Shown here: piece after piece, positions 1-13,355 of the stretch
How positions within the stretch are numbered: the first letter of the stretch is position 1
How the letters are laid out: each line of letters starts with the position of its first letter
Assembly (NCBI RefSeq): GCF_003611695.1
Contig: NZ_RAWE01000009.1
Coordinates: 1 to 64,000, forward strand
Origin: Corallococcus carmarthensis
GTDB taxonomy: Bacteria; Myxococcota; Myxococcia; Myxococcales; Myxococcaceae
Direction: 5' to 3'
Length of the DNA: 64,000 bases
Position numbers and translations under genes: made by a program
The notes under the pieces: model-generated
Database searches by the model: none
Told to the model about the DNA's origin: nothing
Seen by the model: the letters and a program-made list of their open reading frames with translations, nothing else

Positions 1-420
1 GGGGACAGGGGGGCGGGACACGCAGGGGACAGCGAGCGCAGGGACAAGTAGTGCGACGGCCCGGGCGAAGCCCGACAGCTCGGCTTCGGCGCGCAGGCGG
101 GACTCGCGCTCGTGGAGCAGCGCCTCATCGCTGCGGGCGAGCTCGGCGCGCACGCGCTCCAGTTCGTCAGCGTGGGAGCAGGACTCGTCACCGGGAAGCT
201 GGTGGCCGACGTCGGGCGCGACGTCCGTGGGCGTTGGCCAGCGCGCCTCGGGCGGCAGGTCGCCGGGGATCACCTGGCTCGCGTCCTCCTCGGTGACGAG
301 CTGCCCGGACAGCAGGCGCACCATGCCGGCGGGAACGGGCTCCTGGGCGGACACCTCCAGGGACGGAGGCATCACGGGACGTCGGCGAGGGCGAGCGGGA
401 GGTGTGGGGCAGGTGCTCAT
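1..420 (-). CDS. Hypothetical protein with coiled coil, C-terminus beyond window edge (partial)
   Basis: The frame starts at an ATG at 420 and stays open to base 1, giving 140 visible residues with no stop, so the gene continues to the left. The first 85 residues are rich in Pro, Glu and Asp. A charged, predicted coiled coil follows at about residues 82-115 (ELERVRAELARSDEALL and onward), then a hydrophobic stretch (ARAVALLVPALAVPC). Only 3 bases separate its start from the stop of the upstream gene at 424, so it is the most downstream visible member of the leftward operon of the integrated element. No family is recognised. A phage tail, portal or regulatory role would be a guess. The frame and codon pattern support a real gene. 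Confidence 0.6.
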   Translation of the reverse strand, partial: MSTCPTPPARPRRRPVMPPSLEVSAQEPVPAGMVRLLSGQLVTEEDASQVIPGDLPPEARWPTPTDVAPDVGHQLPGDESCSHADELERVRAELARSDEALLHERESRLRAEAELSGFARAVALLVPALAVPCVSRPPVP

Positions 421-423
421 GGG

Positions 424-723
424 CTACGACTCCTCGGAGGTGTCGGACGCGATGGGGTGGGGCGGGGCCAGCCACGTGGGCGGCGTCAGCACGCAGGGCG
501 GGTGCCGGCAGCAGCTGGGCGGCACGGGCTGGTCCACGCAGTCGGCCTGCCAGGCGATGCCGTGACGGCAGGTGGGCCACGGGCCCGGGTGCTTCCCGCG
601 CACCGCCTCGGAGGCAGTGCGCGGGGCGTGGGGCGACGGCAGGCCCTCGTTGGTGATGGCGTCGCCCAGTCGGATGGCTCCGCAACGCTCGCAGCGCACG
701 GCGGGCAGTCGGCAGCGGCTCAC
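424..723 (-). CDS. Small cysteine-rich hypothetical protein (zinc-ribbon-like)
   Basis: This 99-residue protein of unknown function is rich in Cys, His and Pro. It opens with a CxxC cluster (CRLPAVRCERCG), and further Cys and His residues follow (CRHGIAWQADC, CCRHPPC), which suggests metal binding. I chose the GTG start at 723 because it overlaps the TGA of the upstream gene by four bases (GTGA), as elsewhere in this operon, and it follows a G-rich ribosome site. An upstream in-frame ATG at 825 would give 133 residues but a 106-base overlap with the preceding gene. The next gene begins 3 bases after its stop. Metal binding is inferred from residue pattern only. Confidence 0.5.
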   Translation of the reverse strand: MSRCRLPAVRCERCGAIRLGDAITNEGLPSPHAPRTASEAVRGKHPGPWPTCRHGIAWQADCVDQPVPPSCCRHPPCVLTPPTWLAPPHPIASDTSEES

Positions 724-1382
724 GGGGACCCCACCGCGGCGCAGGTATGCGGCGGGCAGCCGGGCGCAGTGCAGCGCCAGGAGCGGCACGTGCGACAGGG
801 CGTCATCGCGCGCCGGCATGTGCACATGCGCAGGACGCGCTCGCGGAGAGTGGCGGGCTCACGGCTCTCTGCGCGCGCGGCACGGGCCTCGTAGGTGTCC
901 CAGCGCGCCCGGTCCGCCTGGGCCACGGAGCCGAAGGCCAGACGCACGCGGGCCAACGTCGGCGCGGGCAGCTCCCACAACGCGTCCGCCGGACCGGGAG
1001 GGCAAGCCACCGGCTCCGGCAGTGCTACCGGCTCCTCCAGCCAAAGCCCTACCGGGCCCACGTACCAGCGCGACTGCTGCTCGCCGTCCGGCCACAGTGA
1101 CACCGCGGCGACGCGAGCCACCGCCACAACCGCGCTGGTGGGCACCTCGCCCGCGCGTGGGGCGCTGACGCCCGGCCCGTGCCAGGAGGCCATCCACTCG
1201 GCCAGTTCGGGCACGTACTCCGCCGCCGCGCACACCGCGACGTAGGTGCCCAGGACATCCGGCGCCGGGGGCCGATGCAGGTTGAGGACGGGCGCGTTGC
1301 GGACCTGGACAGCCCAGGCCCACGGCTGGAGTGCGGTCGCGCCGAAAATGGGCACGCGCATGGGGGCGTCGCAGGGGCTCAT
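720..1382 (-). CDS. ASCH-domain-like protein of the integrated element
   Basis: This 220-residue protein resembles ASCH/PUA-like proteins common in phages. Visible similarities are an N-terminal LQPWAWAV segment, a central small-to-hydrophobic strand (TSAVVAVARVAAVSL) and a conserved-looking WYVGPVGLWLEEPVAL block followed by DALWELP, which matches the usual end of the fold. ASCH domains are thought to bind RNA or modified nucleotides, and some are hydrolases; no catalytic claim is made here. The last 40 residues are Cys-rich and unlike the family. Its ATG at 1382 overlaps the stop of the 29-residue gene upstream (ATGA), and its TGA overlaps the next start (GTGA), which implies translational coupling through the operon. 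The assignment comes from motif appearance, not a search. Confidence 0.5.
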   Translation of the reverse strand: MSPCDAPMRVPIFGATALQPWAWAVQVRNAPVLNLHRPPAPDVLGTYVAVCAAAEYVPELAEWMASWHGPGVSAPRAGEVPTSAVVAVARVAAVSLWPDGEQQSRWYVGPVGLWLEEPVALPEPVACPPGPADALWELPAPTLARVRLAFGSVAQADRARWDTYEARAARAESREPATLRERVLRMCTCRRAMTPCRTCRSWRCTAPGCPPHTCAAVGSP

Positions 1383-1468
1383 GCCGCCTCCAGCTCCTGA
1401 AGGGCGACGACGACGCGGAGGACAGCGAGCGCGACGAGGACGCCCGCTAGCGTGAGCAGGTCACGCAT
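1379..1468 (-). CDS. 29-residue single-pass membrane microprotein
   Basis: A short frame fills the only gap between two larger operon genes. It starts at ATG 1468, inside the last codons of the upstream gene (8-base overlap), and ends with a TGA at 1379 that overlaps the next ATG at 1382 by four bases. The product has a predicted transmembrane helix at about residues 4-24 (LLTLAGVLVALAVLRVVVAL) and an acidic end (QELEAA). Both-ended coupling and the clean hydrophobic segment argue that it is translated. In phages, small one-helix proteins can be holins, spanin parts or superinfection factors, but nothing here selects among these. It is too short for routine gene callers. Confidence 0.5.
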   Translation of the reverse strand: MRDLLTLAGVLVALAVLRVVVALQELEAA

Positions 1469-2099
1469 GGGACGCCTCCTCACCGACAACGGCGCGGACC
1501 TGCTGCCGCCAGGACGCCTCCCGACTGCGCGCCTCGCTCCACAGCTCGCGGCACCGCTCGCTGCTGCACGTGCCCGCCGGTACGTCGGCGCGCTCGTGGT
1601 AGACCTCCGCGAAGGACCGCGGCGCCCAGCAGACGGCGCAGCCGCCGAGCTGCATCAGCTGCGCCTCGTCGTGGAGGCGCTTGCGCAGTAGCCCCAGCTG
1701 GCTCGCCGGCGTCGTCTCCAGCAGGTAGGCCACGGCCGTCCGGCGCATGGCGGGAGTCGTCAACAGGGGCGAAAGGGCAGGCGGGGGGAACACGGCCACA
1801 GCGGCGCGGAGCTGCTCGACGTTGACGCTCACGCGCGCCTTGCCGCGGACGTCGAGCACAATGACGTGCCCCTGCGTCTGGGCATCGTCGGCCTCATCGC
1901 GCAGATTCAGGGTGGTGCGGGCCCAGTCCACCAGCGGGCGCACCGCTTCGACCTGCGCCCGGAGCGCCACCAGCTCGCGCTCCAGGGTGTCGACGGCGGT
2001 GGACGCGGCTGCACTCGCCGCTTTGCGGCGGCCACGTCTGGCGCTACCGGCAATGAGCCCCAGCGACTGCCGGATGACTGCCGTCAGCGCCGCGCTCAA
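1461..2099 (-). CDS. Hypothetical protein with N-terminal coiled coil and Cys-containing C-terminus
   Basis: This 212-residue protein has no recognised family. Residues 35-65 form a likely coiled coil (VDTLERELVALRAQVEAVRPL). The middle is of mixed composition. The C-terminal part has a Cys pair (GGCAVCWAP) and a second pair (GTCSSERCREL), so a small zinc site is possible. The start is a TTG at 2099 that overlaps the TGA of the upstream gene (TTGA), consistent with translational coupling and the operon style of this element. Its own end overlaps the start of the 29-residue membrane protein. The CAVC motif resembles the CAVC and CADC motifs in the two genes upstream, which hints at a shared origin or shared zinc fold. 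Function is unknown. Confidence 0.55.
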   Translation of the reverse strand: MSAALTAVIRQSLGLIAGSARRGRRKAASAAASTAVDTLERELVALRAQVEAVRPLVDWARTTLNLRDEADDAQTQGHVIVLDVRGKARVSVNVEQLRAAVAVFPPPALSPLLTTPAMRRTAVAYLLETTPASQLGLLRKRLHDEAQLMQLGGCAVCWAPRSFAEVYHERADVPAGTCSSERCRELWSEARSREASWRQQVRAVVGEEASHA

Positions 2100-2605
2100 A
2101 GGGCGCCTCCGTTGTCACGGAACGCCTGCACCTGGACGTCGAGGGTCCTCAGCAGCTGGCCGGGGACGGCCTTGCGCTCTCCGAAGGTGTCAGCCAGGGC
2201 GCGCACCAGCGCATGGACATCTTCGATCTGCTGCCGGAGGCGCGCGGCCTCGTTCACGGCCGCCGGGAGAGCGTGCTGCCAGCAGGCCATGGGGGGCTGC
2301 CCGCCCATGGTGCTGGCGCTGCACACCGCGCAGCCCGGCACCAGCGGGAGTGAGCGCCGGAACGCTGTCACCGCGTCGGTGTCCGTCCCCGAGGGCGTGA
2401 GCGGCCCGGCCTGCCTGGCATGCCCAATCGCGTTGAGGACGGCCAGGCACTCCGAAGGCTCCAGGCTGACCCCGAGGCCTGCCGCGCCGGTAGACAGGTA
2501 CGCGCGGAGCTTCTCTCCGAGCAGCCTGGGGGAGGCGTCCGGGACACTGGACGGTCCAGCAGGACGCTGGACGGTTCGGGACTGGGTGCGAGACGAACGT
2601 TTCAT
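2096..2605 (-). CDS. Hypothetical protein with CxxC...CxQHAL motif
   Basis: This 169-residue protein is of unknown function. Its ATG at 2605 is preceded by a GGAGAG ribosome site at a good distance. The N-terminal 30 residues are Ser/Pro/Arg-rich and probably disordered. Residues about 85-120 hold GCAVCSAS followed by MACWQHALPAAVNEA, a Cys/His set that could bind a metal. The C-terminal third is helical (RLRQQIEDVHALVRALADTF). The neighbouring upstream gene has a closely similar CADC...ACLQHALEAA segment, so the two are probably diverged relatives. The stop overlaps the next gene's TTG start by four bases. Confidence 0.55.
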   Translation of the reverse strand: MKRSSRTQSRTVQRPAGPSSVPDASPRLLGEKLRAYLSTGAAGLGVSLEPSECLAVLNAIGHARQAGPLTPSGTDTDAVTAFRRSLPLVPGCAVCSASTMGGQPPMACWQHALPAAVNEAARLRQQIEDVHALVRALADTFGERKAVPGQLLRTLDVQVQAFRDNGGAL

Positions 2606-2690
2606 GGTGAGGCTCTCTCCGCCGCGCGCTTCGGCGCGCGGTCAGCGGGTGGCGGGGCTCGTTCGCGCCCCGTGCGGCAAGGGCAGGGCG

Positions 2691-2936
2691 TTACGAACGG
2701 AGGCGTTCCGGGAGGAGCCGCACGGCGGCTTCCAGTGCGTGTTGGAGGCATGCCTGGGCGGCGGTGCAGTCCGCGCATCCCGCGACGGCAGGGACACGAG
2801 CGCGGAAGACGTCGGCCTGAACCCGTGTGCTCGCTGCGTGCTCGCCAGCCGTCACCAAGAGGCGCGAGGAAGCAACAGCATCAAACCCACTGCCGCGCGA
2901 AGTCCTCGGAAACTCTGAGGAATCAACACGGTTCAA
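2691..2936 (-). CDS. Small hypothetical protein with CADC...CLQHAL motif
   Basis: This 81-residue open frame is the first gene of the leftward operon and lies right at the end of the integrated element. The C-terminal half, GCADCTAAQACLQHALEAA, resembles the CAVC...ACWQHALPAAV segment of the next gene, which is the main evidence that it is coding. The likely start is a TTG at 2936 without a clear ribosome site. A shorter form is possible because the N-terminal 35 residues have weaker coding character. An 84-base gap separates it from the next gene, the only loose junction in this operon. Function is unknown. Confidence 0.4.
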   Translation of the reverse strand: MNRVDSSEFPRTSRGSGFDAVASSRLLVTAGEHAASTRVQADVFRARVPAVAGCADCTAAQACLQHALEAAVRLLPERLRS

Positions 2937-2944
2937 CAGCGTGA

Positions 2945-3079
2945 TGGGAGGCTGGTTTCTTTCTCTTCCAGAACGGCATCGACGGGCGCATGGTGCGCTT
3001 CGACGTCATCTCCGTCGTGGGCCAGGGCGAGCACGCCCGGGTGGAGCACCTGCCCGCCGCCTTCGACGCTGGCATGTAA
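2945..3079 (+). pseudogene. yraN: 3' fragment of yraN (UPF0102 nuclease-fold protein)
   Basis: In the frame that ends at the TAA at 3077-3079, 44 codons are open after a stop at 2942. They encode a typical YraN C-terminus: FLFQNGIDGRMVRFDVISV, then an acidic/His segment EHARVEHLPAAFDAGM. YraN proteins are about 120 residues with an endonuclease-like fold; the catalytic N-terminal two thirds are absent here. The fragment lies 13 bases before rsmI, and yraN is a common neighbour of rsmI, so the original order was probably yraN-rsmI. The integrated element to the left has separated the halves. The 5' part may survive at the other end of the element, outside this window. Confidence 0.7.
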
Positions 3080-3092
3080 AGGAATCCATCCC

Positions 3093-3926
3093 TTGGCTGG
3101 AACGCTCTACCTCGTGGCCACGCCCATCGGGAACCTGGGGGACGTCACCGCCCGGGCCCTGGAGACGCTGCGCACCGTGGGCTTGCTCGCGTGCGAGGAC
3201 ACCCGGCACTCGCGCATCCTGTTGGACCACTTCGGCATCGCCGGGAAGGACCTGGTGAGCCTGCCCGCATTCGCGGAGGGGCAGCGCGCCGGGCGCATCC
3301 TGGACCGCATCGAAGCGGGGGAGGACTGCGCGCTCATCACCGACGCGGGCAGCCCCGGCATCAGCGACCCGGGTGAGAAGCTGGTGGCGGAGGCGCTGGA
3401 GCGCGGCCTGAAGGTGGAGCCGGTGCCCGGGCCCACGGCCCTGGTGGCCGCCTTGAGCGCGTCGGGGCTGCCCACCGGGCGCTTCCACTTCCTGGGCTTC
3501 CTGCCGCGCAAGGGGCCGGAGCGCCGGGCCATGCTGGACGAGGTGGCCCCCCTGTCCGCCACCTGCGTCCTCTACGAATCCCCGCGCCGCCTGGCGGAGA
3601 CGCTGGTGGACCTCCAGGAGGCCTGGGGGGACCGGCGCGCGTGCGTGGCGCGCGAGCTGACCAAGTTGCACGAGGAGTTCGTCCGGGGGCCGCTGTCCAC
3701 CCTCGTCGCGCGCTACGCGGGCGAGGAGACCCGGGGCGAGGTGGTGGTGCTGGTGGAGGGCCGCACCGGCGAGCAGCGCTGGAGCGAGGACGAGCTGCGC
3801 CGGGCGCTGGAGGCGGGCCTGGCTCGCGGCGAGAAGCTCAAGCCGCTGAGCACGGAGCTGGCCCGCCGCGCGGGGTGGCCCGGCCAGGAGGTGTACCGGC
3901 TGGGCCTGGGGTTGAAGCAGCGGTAG
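3093..3926 (+). CDS. rsmI: 16S rRNA (cytidine-1402-2'-O)-methyltransferase
   Basis: RsmI uses S-adenosylmethionine to methylate the ribose of C1402 in the decoding centre of 16S rRNA, in the cytoplasm. The 277-residue product matches the family length. Visible family motifs are LYLVATPIGNLGDVTARA at the start, ACEDTRHSRILL, ALITDAGSPGISDPG (the cofactor region of the tetrapyrrole-methylase fold), PGPTALVAALSASGLP, and ESPRRLAETL. The start is a TTG at 3093 with an AAAGGA ribosome site upstream. The preceding sequence is the 3' remnant of yraN, so rsmI has probably lost its ancestral upstream promoter and may depend on a local one or on the integrated element. It converges with the barrel-protein gene 33 bases downstream. 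Confidence 0.95.
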   Translation: MAGTLYLVATPIGNLGDVTARALETLRTVGLLACEDTRHSRILLDHFGIAGKDLVSLPAFAEGQRAGRILDRIEAGEDCALITDAGSPGISDPGEKLVAEALERGLKVEPVPGPTALVAALSASGLPTGRFHFLGFLPRKGPERRAMLDEVAPLSATCVLYESPRRLAETLVDLQEAWGDRRACVARELTKLHEEFVRGPLSTLVARYAGEETRGEVVVLVEGRTGEQRWSEDELRRALEAGLARGEKLKPLSTELARRAGWPGQEVYRLGLGLKQR

Positions 3927-9388: not shown

Positions 9389-11116
9389 GTGACCGCCCCT
9401 GCTCCTGCCTCTCATTCGCAGCCAGTCCCCCCGGCAGCTCCTGTGCCGGCCGAACCCAAGCACGCGGGGGGACGCGGCGCCACGCTGGTCGCCATCGGCA
9501 TCCTGGCGTCGCGCTTGATGGGCCTGGTGCGCGAGCGGGTCTTCGCGCACTACCTGGGCAACGCGGAGACGGCCGCCGTCTTCAAGGCCGCGCTGCGCAT
9601 CCCCAACTTCCTCCAGAACCTCTTCGGCGAAGGCGTGCTGTCCGGCTCCTTCATCCCCGTCTACGCCCAGCTGCTGGGCAAGAAGGACGCGGACGAGGCG
9701 GACCGGGTCGCGGGCGCGGTGTTCGGCCTGCTGGCCCTGGCCACGGGCATGATGGTGGCGCTGGGCATGCTGGCCACGCCGCTGTTCGTGGACCTCATCG
9801 CGCCGGGCTTCGAGGGCGGCGATCGCGACCTGGCCGTGCGGCTGGTGCGCATCCTCTTCCCTGGCACGGGCTTCCTGGTGTTGAGCGCGTGGTGCCTGGG
9901 CATCCTCAACAGCCACCGGCGCTTCCTGCTGTCGTACCTGGCGCCCGTGGTGTGGAACCTCGTCATCATCGCCACGCTGTTGGGGGTGGGCGGCCGGTAC
10001 GCGTCCGGCGGGCGCGCCGCGGAGGAGGCCCTGACGGAGTGGCTGGCCTGGGGCGTGGTGCTGGGCAGCTTCCTCCAGTTCGCGGTGCAGGTGCCCACGG
10101 TGCTGCGCCTGCTGGGCCACTTCCGCCCGGTGGTGTCGCTGGCGAGCGCGTCCGTGCGCCAGGTGATGAAGAACTTCGGCCCGGTGGTGCTGGGGCGCGG
10201 CGTGGTGCAGTTCAGCGCGTGGGTGGACACCGCCTTCGCGTCGCTCATCTCCAGCCGCGCGCTGTCCTCGCTCCTCTACGCGCAGACCATCTACCTCATC
10301 CCGGTGAGCCTCTTCGGCATGGCGGTATCCGCCGCGGAGCTGCCGGAGATGGCGCGCGCCACGGCGGATGGGGAGGCCCAGGCCCACGAGAAGCTGAGAA
10401 CCCGCATCGACGCGGGCTCGCGGCGCATCGCCTTCTGGGTGGTGCCGTCCGCCGCCGCGCTCCTCTTCCTGGGGGACATGGTCAGCGGCGCGCTCCTCCA
10501 AACGGGCCGCTTCGGCGCGGCGGACTCGCGCTACCTCTGGTACCTGCTGATGGGCGCGGCGGTGGGCCTGGTGGCGTCCACCGTGGGCCGGCTCTACGCG
10601 TCCGCCTTCTACGCGCTGAAGGATCCGAAGACGCCCCTGCGCTACGCCATCGTGCGCGTGGCCCTGGGCACCGTGAAGGCGTGGTTCCTGGCGCTGTGGC
10701 TGCCGGAGCGGCTGGGGCTGCCCCGGGAGCTGGGCGCCGCCTTCCTCACCCTGTCCAGCGGCATCGTGGCCTGGGTGGAGACCACGCTCCTGCGCCGCAA
10801 GCTGCGCTCCATCGTGGGTCCCGTGGGCCTGCCGGCGGGGCTCCTGCCCAAGCTGTACGGCGCGGCGGTGGTGGGCGGGCTCGTGGCGCTGGCCGTCAAG
10901 CAGGGCCTCACCGGCCTCCTGGGCCCCATGCCCGACGTGGGCCTGGAGTGGGGTGGGGGGCTGCTCGTGCCGCCCCGGCTGCACCCGGTGCTGGGCCTCC
11001 TGGCCACCGCGGTGCCCTTCGGGGTCGTCTACTTCGCGGTGTCCGCCGCCCTGGGGGTTCCAGAGGCGGGCGCCGTCTTCCGCAAGGTGGGCCGGCGGCT
11101 GGGGCTCGCCCGCTAG
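9389..11116 (+). CDS. murJ: Lipid II flippase MurJ
   Basis: MurJ moves the peptidoglycan precursor lipid II from the cytoplasmic to the periplasmic face of the inner membrane. The 575-residue product is somewhat longer than usual (about 510) because of a 28-residue Pro/Ala-rich N-terminal extension and a long C-terminal end. The family signature GILASRLMGLVRERVFAHYLG is clear, followed by FKAALRIPNFLQNLFGEGVLSGSFIPVYAQ, and 13-14 hydrophobic helices can be traced. The central cavity Arg residues of this signature are present. The start is a GTG at 9389 with a weak ribosome site; ATG 9509 falls inside the signature and is too late. It is divergent from encB. Confidence 0.92.
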   Translation: MTAPAPASHSQPVPPAAPVPAEPKHAGGRGATLVAIGILASRLMGLVRERVFAHYLGNAETAAVFKAALRIPNFLQNLFGEGVLSGSFIPVYAQLLGKKDADEADRVAGAVFGLLALATGMMVALGMLATPLFVDLIAPGFEGGDRDLAVRLVRILFPGTGFLVLSAWCLGILNSHRRFLLSYLAPVVWNLVIIATLLGVGGRYASGGRAAEEALTEWLAWGVVLGSFLQFAVQVPTVLRLLGHFRPVVSLASASVRQVMKNFGPVVLGRGVVQFSAWVDTAFASLISSRALSSLLYAQTIYLIPVSLFGMAVSAAELPEMARATADGEAQAHEKLRTRIDAGSRRIAFWVVPSAAALLFLGDMVSGALLQTGRFGAADSRYLWYLLMGAAVGLVASTVGRLYASAFYALKDPKTPLRYAIVRVALGTVKAWFLALWLPERLGLPRELGAAFLTLSSGIVAWVETTLLRRKLRSIVGPVGLPAGLLPKLYGAAVVGGLVALAVKQGLTGLLGPMPDVGLEWGGGLLVPPRLHPVLGLLATAVPFGVVYFAVSAALGVPEAGAVFRKVGRRLGLAR

Positions 11117-11342
11117 ACGCGGCGCGGCGCCCGGCGGCCAGGCTGCCCTCCAGGCGGTGTCTGGGGGCTCCTACGGAATGCAGGACAGGCCCCTTTCCGT
11201 TGCGATAGGAGGCCGATTGTGAGGGGAAGTCCGCATGCGGCTTCCTCCGGGCATGGCGCGCGTGTAGAGTGCGCCGCCTTTTTCAAGAGGCCCCGACTTC
11301 AAGGAAGTCCCGGGCCGAAATCGTCAACGGAAGGTCTCGGCA

Positions 11343-13355
11343 GTGAGCGACGAGAAGAGCGGCGGAAATTCGGGCGGTCCTGGCGGTTTCGGTCCCAAGA
11401 AGCCGAAGGCCACGTTTGGCGACGTGATGCTGGGCATCCCTTCGGGGAGCCAGGGCAACGAGCGCGGCGGTGGCCGTGGCGGTGGCGGCCGCGACGAGAA
11501 GAGCGGCCCGGGCCGGGGTGAGCGCGGTCCGCGCGACGCCCAGTCTCAGCCGCGTCCCCAGGGCGATGCGCCCCGCGGCGGCGGCGAGCGCGGCGGTGGC
11601 CGTGGCGGCGAGCGCCGGGGTGGCAGCGGGGGCGGCGAGCGCCGTCCCTCCGGCCCCATGGTGGTCGTGAAGCGCGCCTCGGGCTCCATCGAGACGCGCG
11701 CCCTGGAGGGTGAGAAGCCCGCCGAGGCGACCGCGACCGCGGAGCAGACGGGCGCCGACGCGCAGGCCTCCGCGGCCTCCACGCCGGCCCCGACGCCGCG
11801 TCCGGTGACGCCGGCTCCCGCGCCTCCCAGCCCCCTGTACGAGGAGGTCCCGGAGACGGAGTCCTTCGCGGACATGTTCGAGGCGCAGGTCAAGGACGGT
11901 GGCGCTCCCGGCCGCCGCGGCGTGCGCATTGGCGAGAAGGTCGCCGGCACCATCTTCCAGCTGGGCGCGGACACCGCGTTCGTGTCGCTGGACGGCTCCG
12001 CGAAGTCGGAGGCGATGATCGAGCTGCGCGAGCTCAAGGACGACGAGGGCATCCTGCGCTTCGGCGTGGGTGACCGCCTGGAGGCGCACGTCGTGGAGAT
12101 GGGTGCCCGGGGCATCCTGCTCAGCCGCGCGCTGGCCAAGGGCAATGCGTCCTTCGCGATGCTCGCGGAGGCCCGCGCCTCCGGCATGCCGGTGGAAGGC
12201 CTGGTCCTCAGCGTGAACAAGGGCGGCGTGGAGGTGGCGATCGGTGAGACGCGCGCCTTCTGCCCCATCAGCCAGCTGGACATCCGCTTCGTGGAGAAGC
12301 CGGATCAGTTCATCGGCGAGAAGCTCCAGTTCCGCGTGACGGAAGTGCGCGATCGCAACGTGGTGCTGTCGCGCCGCTCGCTGCTGGAGGACGAGCAGCG
12401 CCGGCTGGCCACGGAGACGCGCAAGACCCTGGCCGTGGGCAAGACGGTCAAGGGCAAGGTCTCCGGCGTGCGCGACTTCGGCGTGTTCGTGGACCTGGGC
12501 GGCGTGGAGGGAATGATCCCCGTCTCCGAGCTCTCCTACACGCGCGTCGCGCATCCCAGCGACGTGGTGAAGCAGGGCGACGAGGTGGAGGTGGAGATCC
12601 TCCGCATGGAGGAGGGCCAGCCCAACTCCGCCGACAAGGCCAAGCAGAAGGAGCGCATCACCCTGTCGCTGCGTTCGCGTCAGGAGGATCCGTTCAAGAA
12701 GGCGCTGGAGGAGATCAAGGAGGGCGACCGCCTGCAGGGCAAGGTCGTCCGGCTCCAGCCCTTCGGCGCGTTCGTGGAGCTGCGCCCGGGCGTGGACGGC
12801 CTGGTGCACATCTCCGCGCTGAGCGACCGGCGCATCGCGCACCCGCGCGACGCGGTGAAGGAAGGCGAGGTCATCTGGGTCTCCGTCGAGAAGATCGACC
12901 CCAATGACAAGCGCATCGGCCTGCGCCGCATCTCCGAGGAAGAGGCCCAGCGTCCTCCCGAGGAGCGTCCCGCGAAGGCGGCCCAGCCGTCGGCTCCCTC
13001 GCAGCCCGCGGCGCCCCGTCCCCAGGTGGGCGCGGTCGTCACCGGCAAGGTGGACCGGCTGGAGCCCTACGGCGTGTTCCTCGCGTTCCCGGGCGGCAAG
13101 GGCCTCATCCCTGCCAGCGAGACGGGCACGGATCGCGGCACGGACATGCGCAAGCACTTCTCCATCGGGCAGGAGCTGAAGGTGGCGATCATCGACATCG
13201 ACGCCTCCGGGAAGATCCGCCTGTCCATCCCCGGCGCGATCCGCGCGGAGGAGCGCGCCGAGGTCGAGGCGTGGCAGAAGACGCAGCAGCCGCAGGGCGC
13301 TGGCAAGAAGGGCTTCGGCACCTTCGCGGATCTGCTCAGCAAGTTGGGCAAGTAG
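11343..13355 (+). CDS. Multi-S1-domain RNA-binding protein with Gly/Arg-rich N-terminus
   Basis: The 670-residue protein contains five S1-type OB folds at about residues 193-265, 285-355, 365-440, 460-530 and 561-635, seen from repeats such as GKVSGVRDFGVFVDLGGVEGM and GKVVRLQPFGAFVELRPGVDGL. It resembles ribosomal protein S1 but is not a simple copy. Residues 1-190 form a long low-complexity tail rich in Gly and Arg (GGGRGGGGR, GGGERGGGRGG), an RGG-like RNA-binding tract. S1 proteins bring mRNA to the ribosome or act in RNA turnover. Short related segments near the start (KATFGDVMLG) and the end (GFGTFADLLSKLGK) may be termini of interest. The start is GTG 11343 with GGAAGG upstream. The 226-base gap before it holds no clear gene. 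Confidence 0.85.
   Translation: MSDEKSGGNSGGPGGFGPKKPKATFGDVMLGIPSGSQGNERGGGRGGGGRDEKSGPGRGERGPRDAQSQPRPQGDAPRGGGERGGGRGGERRGGSGGGERRPSGPMVVVKRASGSIETRALEGEKPAEATATAEQTGADAQASAASTPAPTPRPVTPAPAPPSPLYEEVPETESFADMFEAQVKDGGAPGRRGVRIGEKVAGTIFQLGADTAFVSLDGSAKSEAMIELRELKDDEGILRFGVGDRLEAHVVEMGARGILLSRALAKGNASFAMLAEARASGMPVEGLVLSVNKGGVEVAIGETRAFCPISQLDIRFVEKPDQFIGEKLQFRVTEVRDRNVVLSRRSLLEDEQRRLATETRKTLAVGKTVKGKVSGVRDFGVFVDLGGVEGMIPVSELSYTRVAHPSDVVKQGDEVEVEILRMEEGQPNSADKAKQKERITLSLRSRQEDPFKKALEEIKEGDRLQGKVVRLQPFGAFVELRPGVDGLVHISALSDRRIAHPRDAVKEGEVIWVSVEKIDPNDKRIGLRRISEEEAQRPPEERPAKAAQPSAPSQPAAPRPQVGAVVTGKVDRLEPYGVFLAFPGGKGLIPASETGTDRGTDMRKHFSIGQELKVAIIDIDASGKIRLSIPGAIRAEERAEVEAWQKTQQPQGAGKKGFGTFADLLSKLGK

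Follow-up and report, generated by a model that had tools for sequence, protein, structure and literature searches.

The window, a stretch of 64,000 nucleotides comprising bases 1-64000 of contig C530 in the draft genome of Corallococcus carmarthensis (G000; 10.8 Mb, 530 contigs), raises the question why the end of a yraN gene stands alone in front of rsmI. Leftward open reading frames occupy positions 1-2605 (open reading frame list), 44 codons of open frame stretch from 2945 to a stop at 3079, and rsmI follows with a TTG start at 3093..3926 on the plus strand, where a profile search identified it as the 16S rRNA (cytidine1402-2'-O)-methyltransferase (TIGR00096, E 2.7e-73). The earlier note had described leftward genes reaching up to an orphan yraN 3' end followed by rsmI, and this arrangement was confirmed. 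Of the 44 codons it assigned to yraN, however, only the last 36 (QNGIDG...DAGM, window 2969-3076) are supplied by that gene, the other 8 being phage and core codons. Frame and junction comparison delimit the yraN 3' remnant (LF, 36 codons and stop) to 2963..3079 on the plus strand. Since the window starts at base 1 of its contig, the left half of yraN cannot lie within it.

The 5' half of yraN was found on contig C21 (positions 7-264), where codons 1-85 are followed directly by a TAG in the phage arm. Comparison of this junction with the right one and with the empty sites of congeners defined the attR core as TCTCTTCCAGAA (2962..2973, plus strand); the attL core on C21 is TCTCTTCTAGAA, and the empty-site core is again TCTCTTCCAGAA. 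The left junction reads CACTATCTCTTC followed by TAGAATCGC, and the right junction reads TTTCTTTCTCTTCCAGAACGG. The sequence TCTCTTC[T/C]AGAA is common to both junctions and present as a single copy in the empty sites of the 15 congeners compared; its first 7 bp, TCTCTTC (2962-2968), are identical in attL and attR and are likely to be the overlap of strand exchange. In congeners, host homology begins at 2959-2963, that is, at the core, and yraN runs uninterrupted through the site in 15 of 15, mostly as CACTATCTCTTCCAGAACGG and in a few with single-base variants. Rejoining the host flanks at TCTCTTC yields a YraN of 121 aa, 120 of which are identical to the YraN of the congener G009. The earlier note had proposed an insertion into yraN-rsmI whose far end should show a yraN 5' half, an integrase and a direct repeat, and suggested comparison with strains lacking the element; all of these were found. 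A full yraN elsewhere together with a missing 5' half, which the note had named as evidence to the contrary, was not observed: the only other yraN material detected in the genome is the 5' half on C21.

Integration would inactivate yraN, a gene reported to be needed for the survival of Escherichia coli at critical high temperature (PMC5828445), and we would have a natural strain living with a broken yraN. Regeneration of the gene by phage DNA was not seen, since the phage arm puts a TAG right after the core. The gene order in congeners is ATPase-yraN-rsmI, which makes it plausible that rsmI has lost its native promoter. A sigma-70 promoter scan of window 2500-3200 returned no site, a result that says little in a GC-rich genome. 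Contigs of many draft congeners (L018, L019, L020, L021, L023, L024 and L015; C21 likewise at its position 1) end at most about 260 bp upstream of the core, and these ends fall just before the yraN start codon, where a G-rich stretch may defeat short-read assembly.

On sequence evidence, window 1..2961 belongs to a tailed-phage prophage of an estimated 36 kb, of which it forms roughly the last 3 kb on the right. Window 1409-2960 matches the right end of the complete prophage of G009 at 87% identity and window 511-1395 at 83%, and the alignment stops at the core, where host homology starts. C21 and the first 3 kb of the window align, ordered and oriented, to this one prophage of 37,027 bp, and size and tailed-phage character follow from the collinearity and the phage genes. 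At its left end C21 encodes a tyrosine integrase (Int; PF00589, E 1.7e-20, residues 187-359), whose gene runs across attL, and a small helix-turn-helix (HTH) protein overlapping int (HTH_17; PHROG 66, excisionase/regulator), which would act as the excisionase. Further inward, PHROG matches identify the large terminase, portal, head protease, major head protein, major tail protein, tape measure, a tail protein and a DNA methyltransferase, a gene set that appears siphovirus-like. The structural open reading frames were picked with a home-made gene caller, and the int region was not taken from its calls. A recombinase gene beside an att site, direct repeats and genes for structure and packaging are thus all present, as in a temperate phage with a tyrosine integrase. 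What the earlier note had called an integrated element stands as such, its nature now being specified by the structural and packaging gene matches.

Within the window, the phage genes all lie on the minus strand. Those at 2096..2605 and 1461..2099 (the latter Cys-rich and of unknown function) are without Pfam or PHROG match, and the one at 720..1382 belongs to PHROG 3193 (unknown function). They are followed by a possible, Cys/His-rich gene at 424..825, which overlaps 720..1382 and is a weak call from the open reading frame list, and by a frame at 1..420 (same list) that is cut by the contig end. Integration would separate this leftward operon from the promoter of int. When window 1-3000 was searched, one 0.9-kb stretch, positions 479-1399, showed 67% DNA identity to positions 10689-11600 of phage Mx4, a region of three hypothetical genes; gene 720..1382 shares this identity with the p22-p23 region. 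Mx4 differs in being contractile-tailed and described as lytic, and its recombinase-like p07 shows 28% identity in the region that matched. A transposable (Mu-like) insertion, raised by the Mx4 match, was rejected, as a tyrosine integrase adjoins the matching core.

The int gene itself is changed by the insertion. In the lysogen its frame crosses attL and ends within antisense yraN after 454 codons, whereas in the reconstructed excised circle it would run into the minus strand of the window and end after 508 codons. Both forms are common to residue 418 and continue with 36 and 90 residues, respectively; Int is 454 and not 508 aa long in the lysogen because 36 antisense yraN codons replace the 90-aa tail, which is left at attR (2691..2963, minus strand, 90 codons and stop) and joins the int frame in the excised form only. 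As read from the junctions, the attachment site lies within the int frame, and integration exchanges the C-terminal codons of int. We compared six elements (G000, G009, G013, G044, G073 and G095), and in five reconstructed circles (G000, G009, G013, G095 and G073) the int frame stays open for 91-102 codons past the core, so that integration alters the Int C-terminus; the six are related and hence are not six independent trials of frame openness. In these circles the other frames run into a stop after 2-17 codons. The int stop of G044 lies 17 codons ahead of the core, which a separate frame crosses; this indicates that the in-frame fusion of int and tail is not obligatory. Taken together, a siphovirus-like temperate phage of about 36 kb that entered yraN by means of a tyrosine integrase, with a 7-bp core and attP inside int, is very probably the explanation of this locus.

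Putative arm-type sites for Int were recognised by motif as a tandem pair on the minus strand of the window, GAGCACGC at 2836..2843 and GAGCACAC at 2825..2832, 11 bp from the first. A matching pair is present in the left arm on C21; GAGCAC[AG]C pairs with 11-bp spacing lie at about -131 and +130 from the core. Across the six elements the motif occurs 17 times against 0.59 expected, and never on the opposite strand; this excess is partly selected, because the motif was noticed in the same sequences in which it was then counted. Some arms do not carry the exact motif in both copies, and the left arm of G009 has only a diverged version. The constant position of the sites across diverged elements is the stronger argument. 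Int would bind these tandem sites about 130 bp on either side of the core. A repeat containing GTTGAT is seemingly conserved between core and arm sites in the right attP arm of the six elements (window about 2905-2940), and could be a binding site of the excisionase.

Counterparts of the displaced tail lie at the other end of the prophage, on the same strand, with 85% identity in G009 and 63% in G013; G095 has one as well, and weak ones occur in G073 and G044. Substitutions between G000 and G009 favour third codon positions (8, 6 and 18 at the three positions), with a dN/dS of about 0.3-0.4. Family searches with the conserved 90-aa tail gave no match, and inspection by eye revealed nothing ssrA-like at the end of the Int tail. 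The CxxC region of the tail is similar to the adjacent phage gene (2096-2605; 50% over 36 aa), which suggests that the tail may have originated there. The tail may be of consequence in the free circle alone, and its loss on integration may change the activity or stability of Int. By analogy with Mx8 and Mx9, there is about an even chance that losing this circle-only tail alters Int such that the lysogen is biased against unscheduled excision.

A possibility that we place well short of even is that attP and the 3' end of int overlap simply for the sake of compactness, with a dispensable Int C-terminus and a tail swap of no regulatory effect. The catalytic domain indeed ends before the core (PF00589, residues 187-359), and the related integrases of G044, G041 and G054 stop before it. 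Arm sites would also account for some of the tail conservation: an EHTAST-like motif, present where Int ends and once more in the tail, is encoded by the arm repeats, so that part of the conservation of the tail protein is at the DNA level. The conserved CxxC region, however, lies beyond the arm sites, the tail dN/dS is below 1, and in five elements, whose cores differ, the frame remains open for a comparable distance, all of which speaks against mere compactness.

It is rather unlikely that the frame spanning attP is a separate small gene with its own start before the core, which integration destroys while leaving Int unaffected. This would suit G044, where the frame starts at an ATG beside the int stop and is open across the core, as well as G013, G073 and G095, where an SD-like AGGAG or GGAGG and an ATG precede the core. 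In G000, G009, G013, G073 and G095, however, no stop separates int from the ATG, and a separate small protein would therefore have to be nested in frame in int.

The two halves of the prophage lie on separate contigs, and we infer the linkage of C21 and C530 from synteny and the match of the two yraN halves; about 3.8 kb between the end of C21 and the start of the window remain unplaced relative to the G009 prophage. A chimeric assembly or a non-phage rearrangement at the junction is highly improbable: the window does start at a contig end, the element is split over contigs and related modules exist on C340, C421 and C58, but the yraN halves, which come from two independent contigs, complement each other and have the core in common, and both ends match one complete prophage in G009. 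The copies of the early-gene module on C340, C421 (347-1438) and C58 (1-233) are 76-99% identical, and therefore at least one more related prophage is probably present in the genome. This repeat may be the reason for the start point of contig C530.

Returning to the integrase with a circle-only tail, its relatives use other targets. The G009 prophage (5013790-5050817) resembles ours in its Int (81% identical), its collinear genome and the same design of int, attP and tail, and differs in its target: instead of yraN it occupies a ParA-like gene, immediately ahead of the Walker A motif, with the core CACCATC. The ParA-like site is contiguous in most congeners and in G000, and split in G009 with a 15-bp overlap. 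Elements of G013, G044, G041, G073 and G095 and one of G054 sit in NtrC-type activator genes, at the 3' end (antisense HTH sequence). In G013 the phage arm restores the 3' end of the activator gene; the yraN and ParA-like targets are truncated because the phage arm supplies an in-frame TAG. The earlier note had considered yraN an unusual target; it is indeed a protein-coding gene, but one of several protein-coding sites used by this integrase family. The 3' ends of NtrC-type sigma-54 activator genes are a recurrent site of the family across genera of Myxococcaceae (L081-L086). A scan of genome contigs with Int gave a single distant match, in a MAG. A related element in G013 (C1:2876354-2957188) has its att sites about 81 kb apart, double the length of the G009 prophage, and may be a tandem or composite prophage. 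Slightly short of even confidence, we propose a phage lineage of Myxococcaceae with an attP-containing int and a conserved circle-only tail of 90-100 codons, possibly derived from a neighbouring gene, that serves as a one-way switch, and with retargeting from NtrC-type genes to the ParA-like gene and yraN.

The insertion itself is ordinary; worth following are the integrase tail swap and the jump between protein-gene targets. The integrases form a natural series, with identities ranging from 81% down to about 47%, protein-gene targets that differ, and matched long and short C-termini. This allows tests of how a tyrosine integrase comes to use another attB and of the role that an exchangeable tail plays in the lysis-lysogeny decision. 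An attP inside int is already known from Mx8 and Mx9 and from archaeal suicidal integrases (PMC8371274). In the latter, of SSV1 type, integration splits the integrase gene into int(N) and int(C), of which int(C) carries the catalytic domain, whereas here the catalytic domain stays whole and only the tail is exchanged. New here appear to be the diverged integrase lineage, the protein-coding targets and a catalytic domain that is never cut. Mycobacteriophage BPs likewise has attP in a coding sequence, and integration shortens the C-terminus and changes the behaviour of the protein (PMC4557955); the principle of integration-dependent truncation would extend to our phage, with the difference that BPs splits its repressor gene and not int.

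In Mx8, attP is reported to lie inside int, so that integration gives int a new 3' end, and the small HTH gene uoi overlaps the int start; Mx9 follows a similar principle, and the altered Int of both is reported to bias the lysogen against unscheduled excision (review PMC6070905). Our phage shares the attP in int and the small HTH gene overlapping the int start. It differs in its protein-coding target and in its siphovirus-like structural genes, as against the short-tailed type reported for Mx8 and Mx9. Int and Mx8 Int share only 27% identity over 202 aa, and the HTH protein did not align with Mx8 Uoi, so that Int and Uoi are not of the Mx8-like (Myxoctovirus) kind. The C-terminal end of Mx9 Int (L063:18795-20441), LLSVKDVAASLSVSTAKVYQLL, looks by eye like an HTH domain of the excisionase type, and would be lost if integration swaps the tail.
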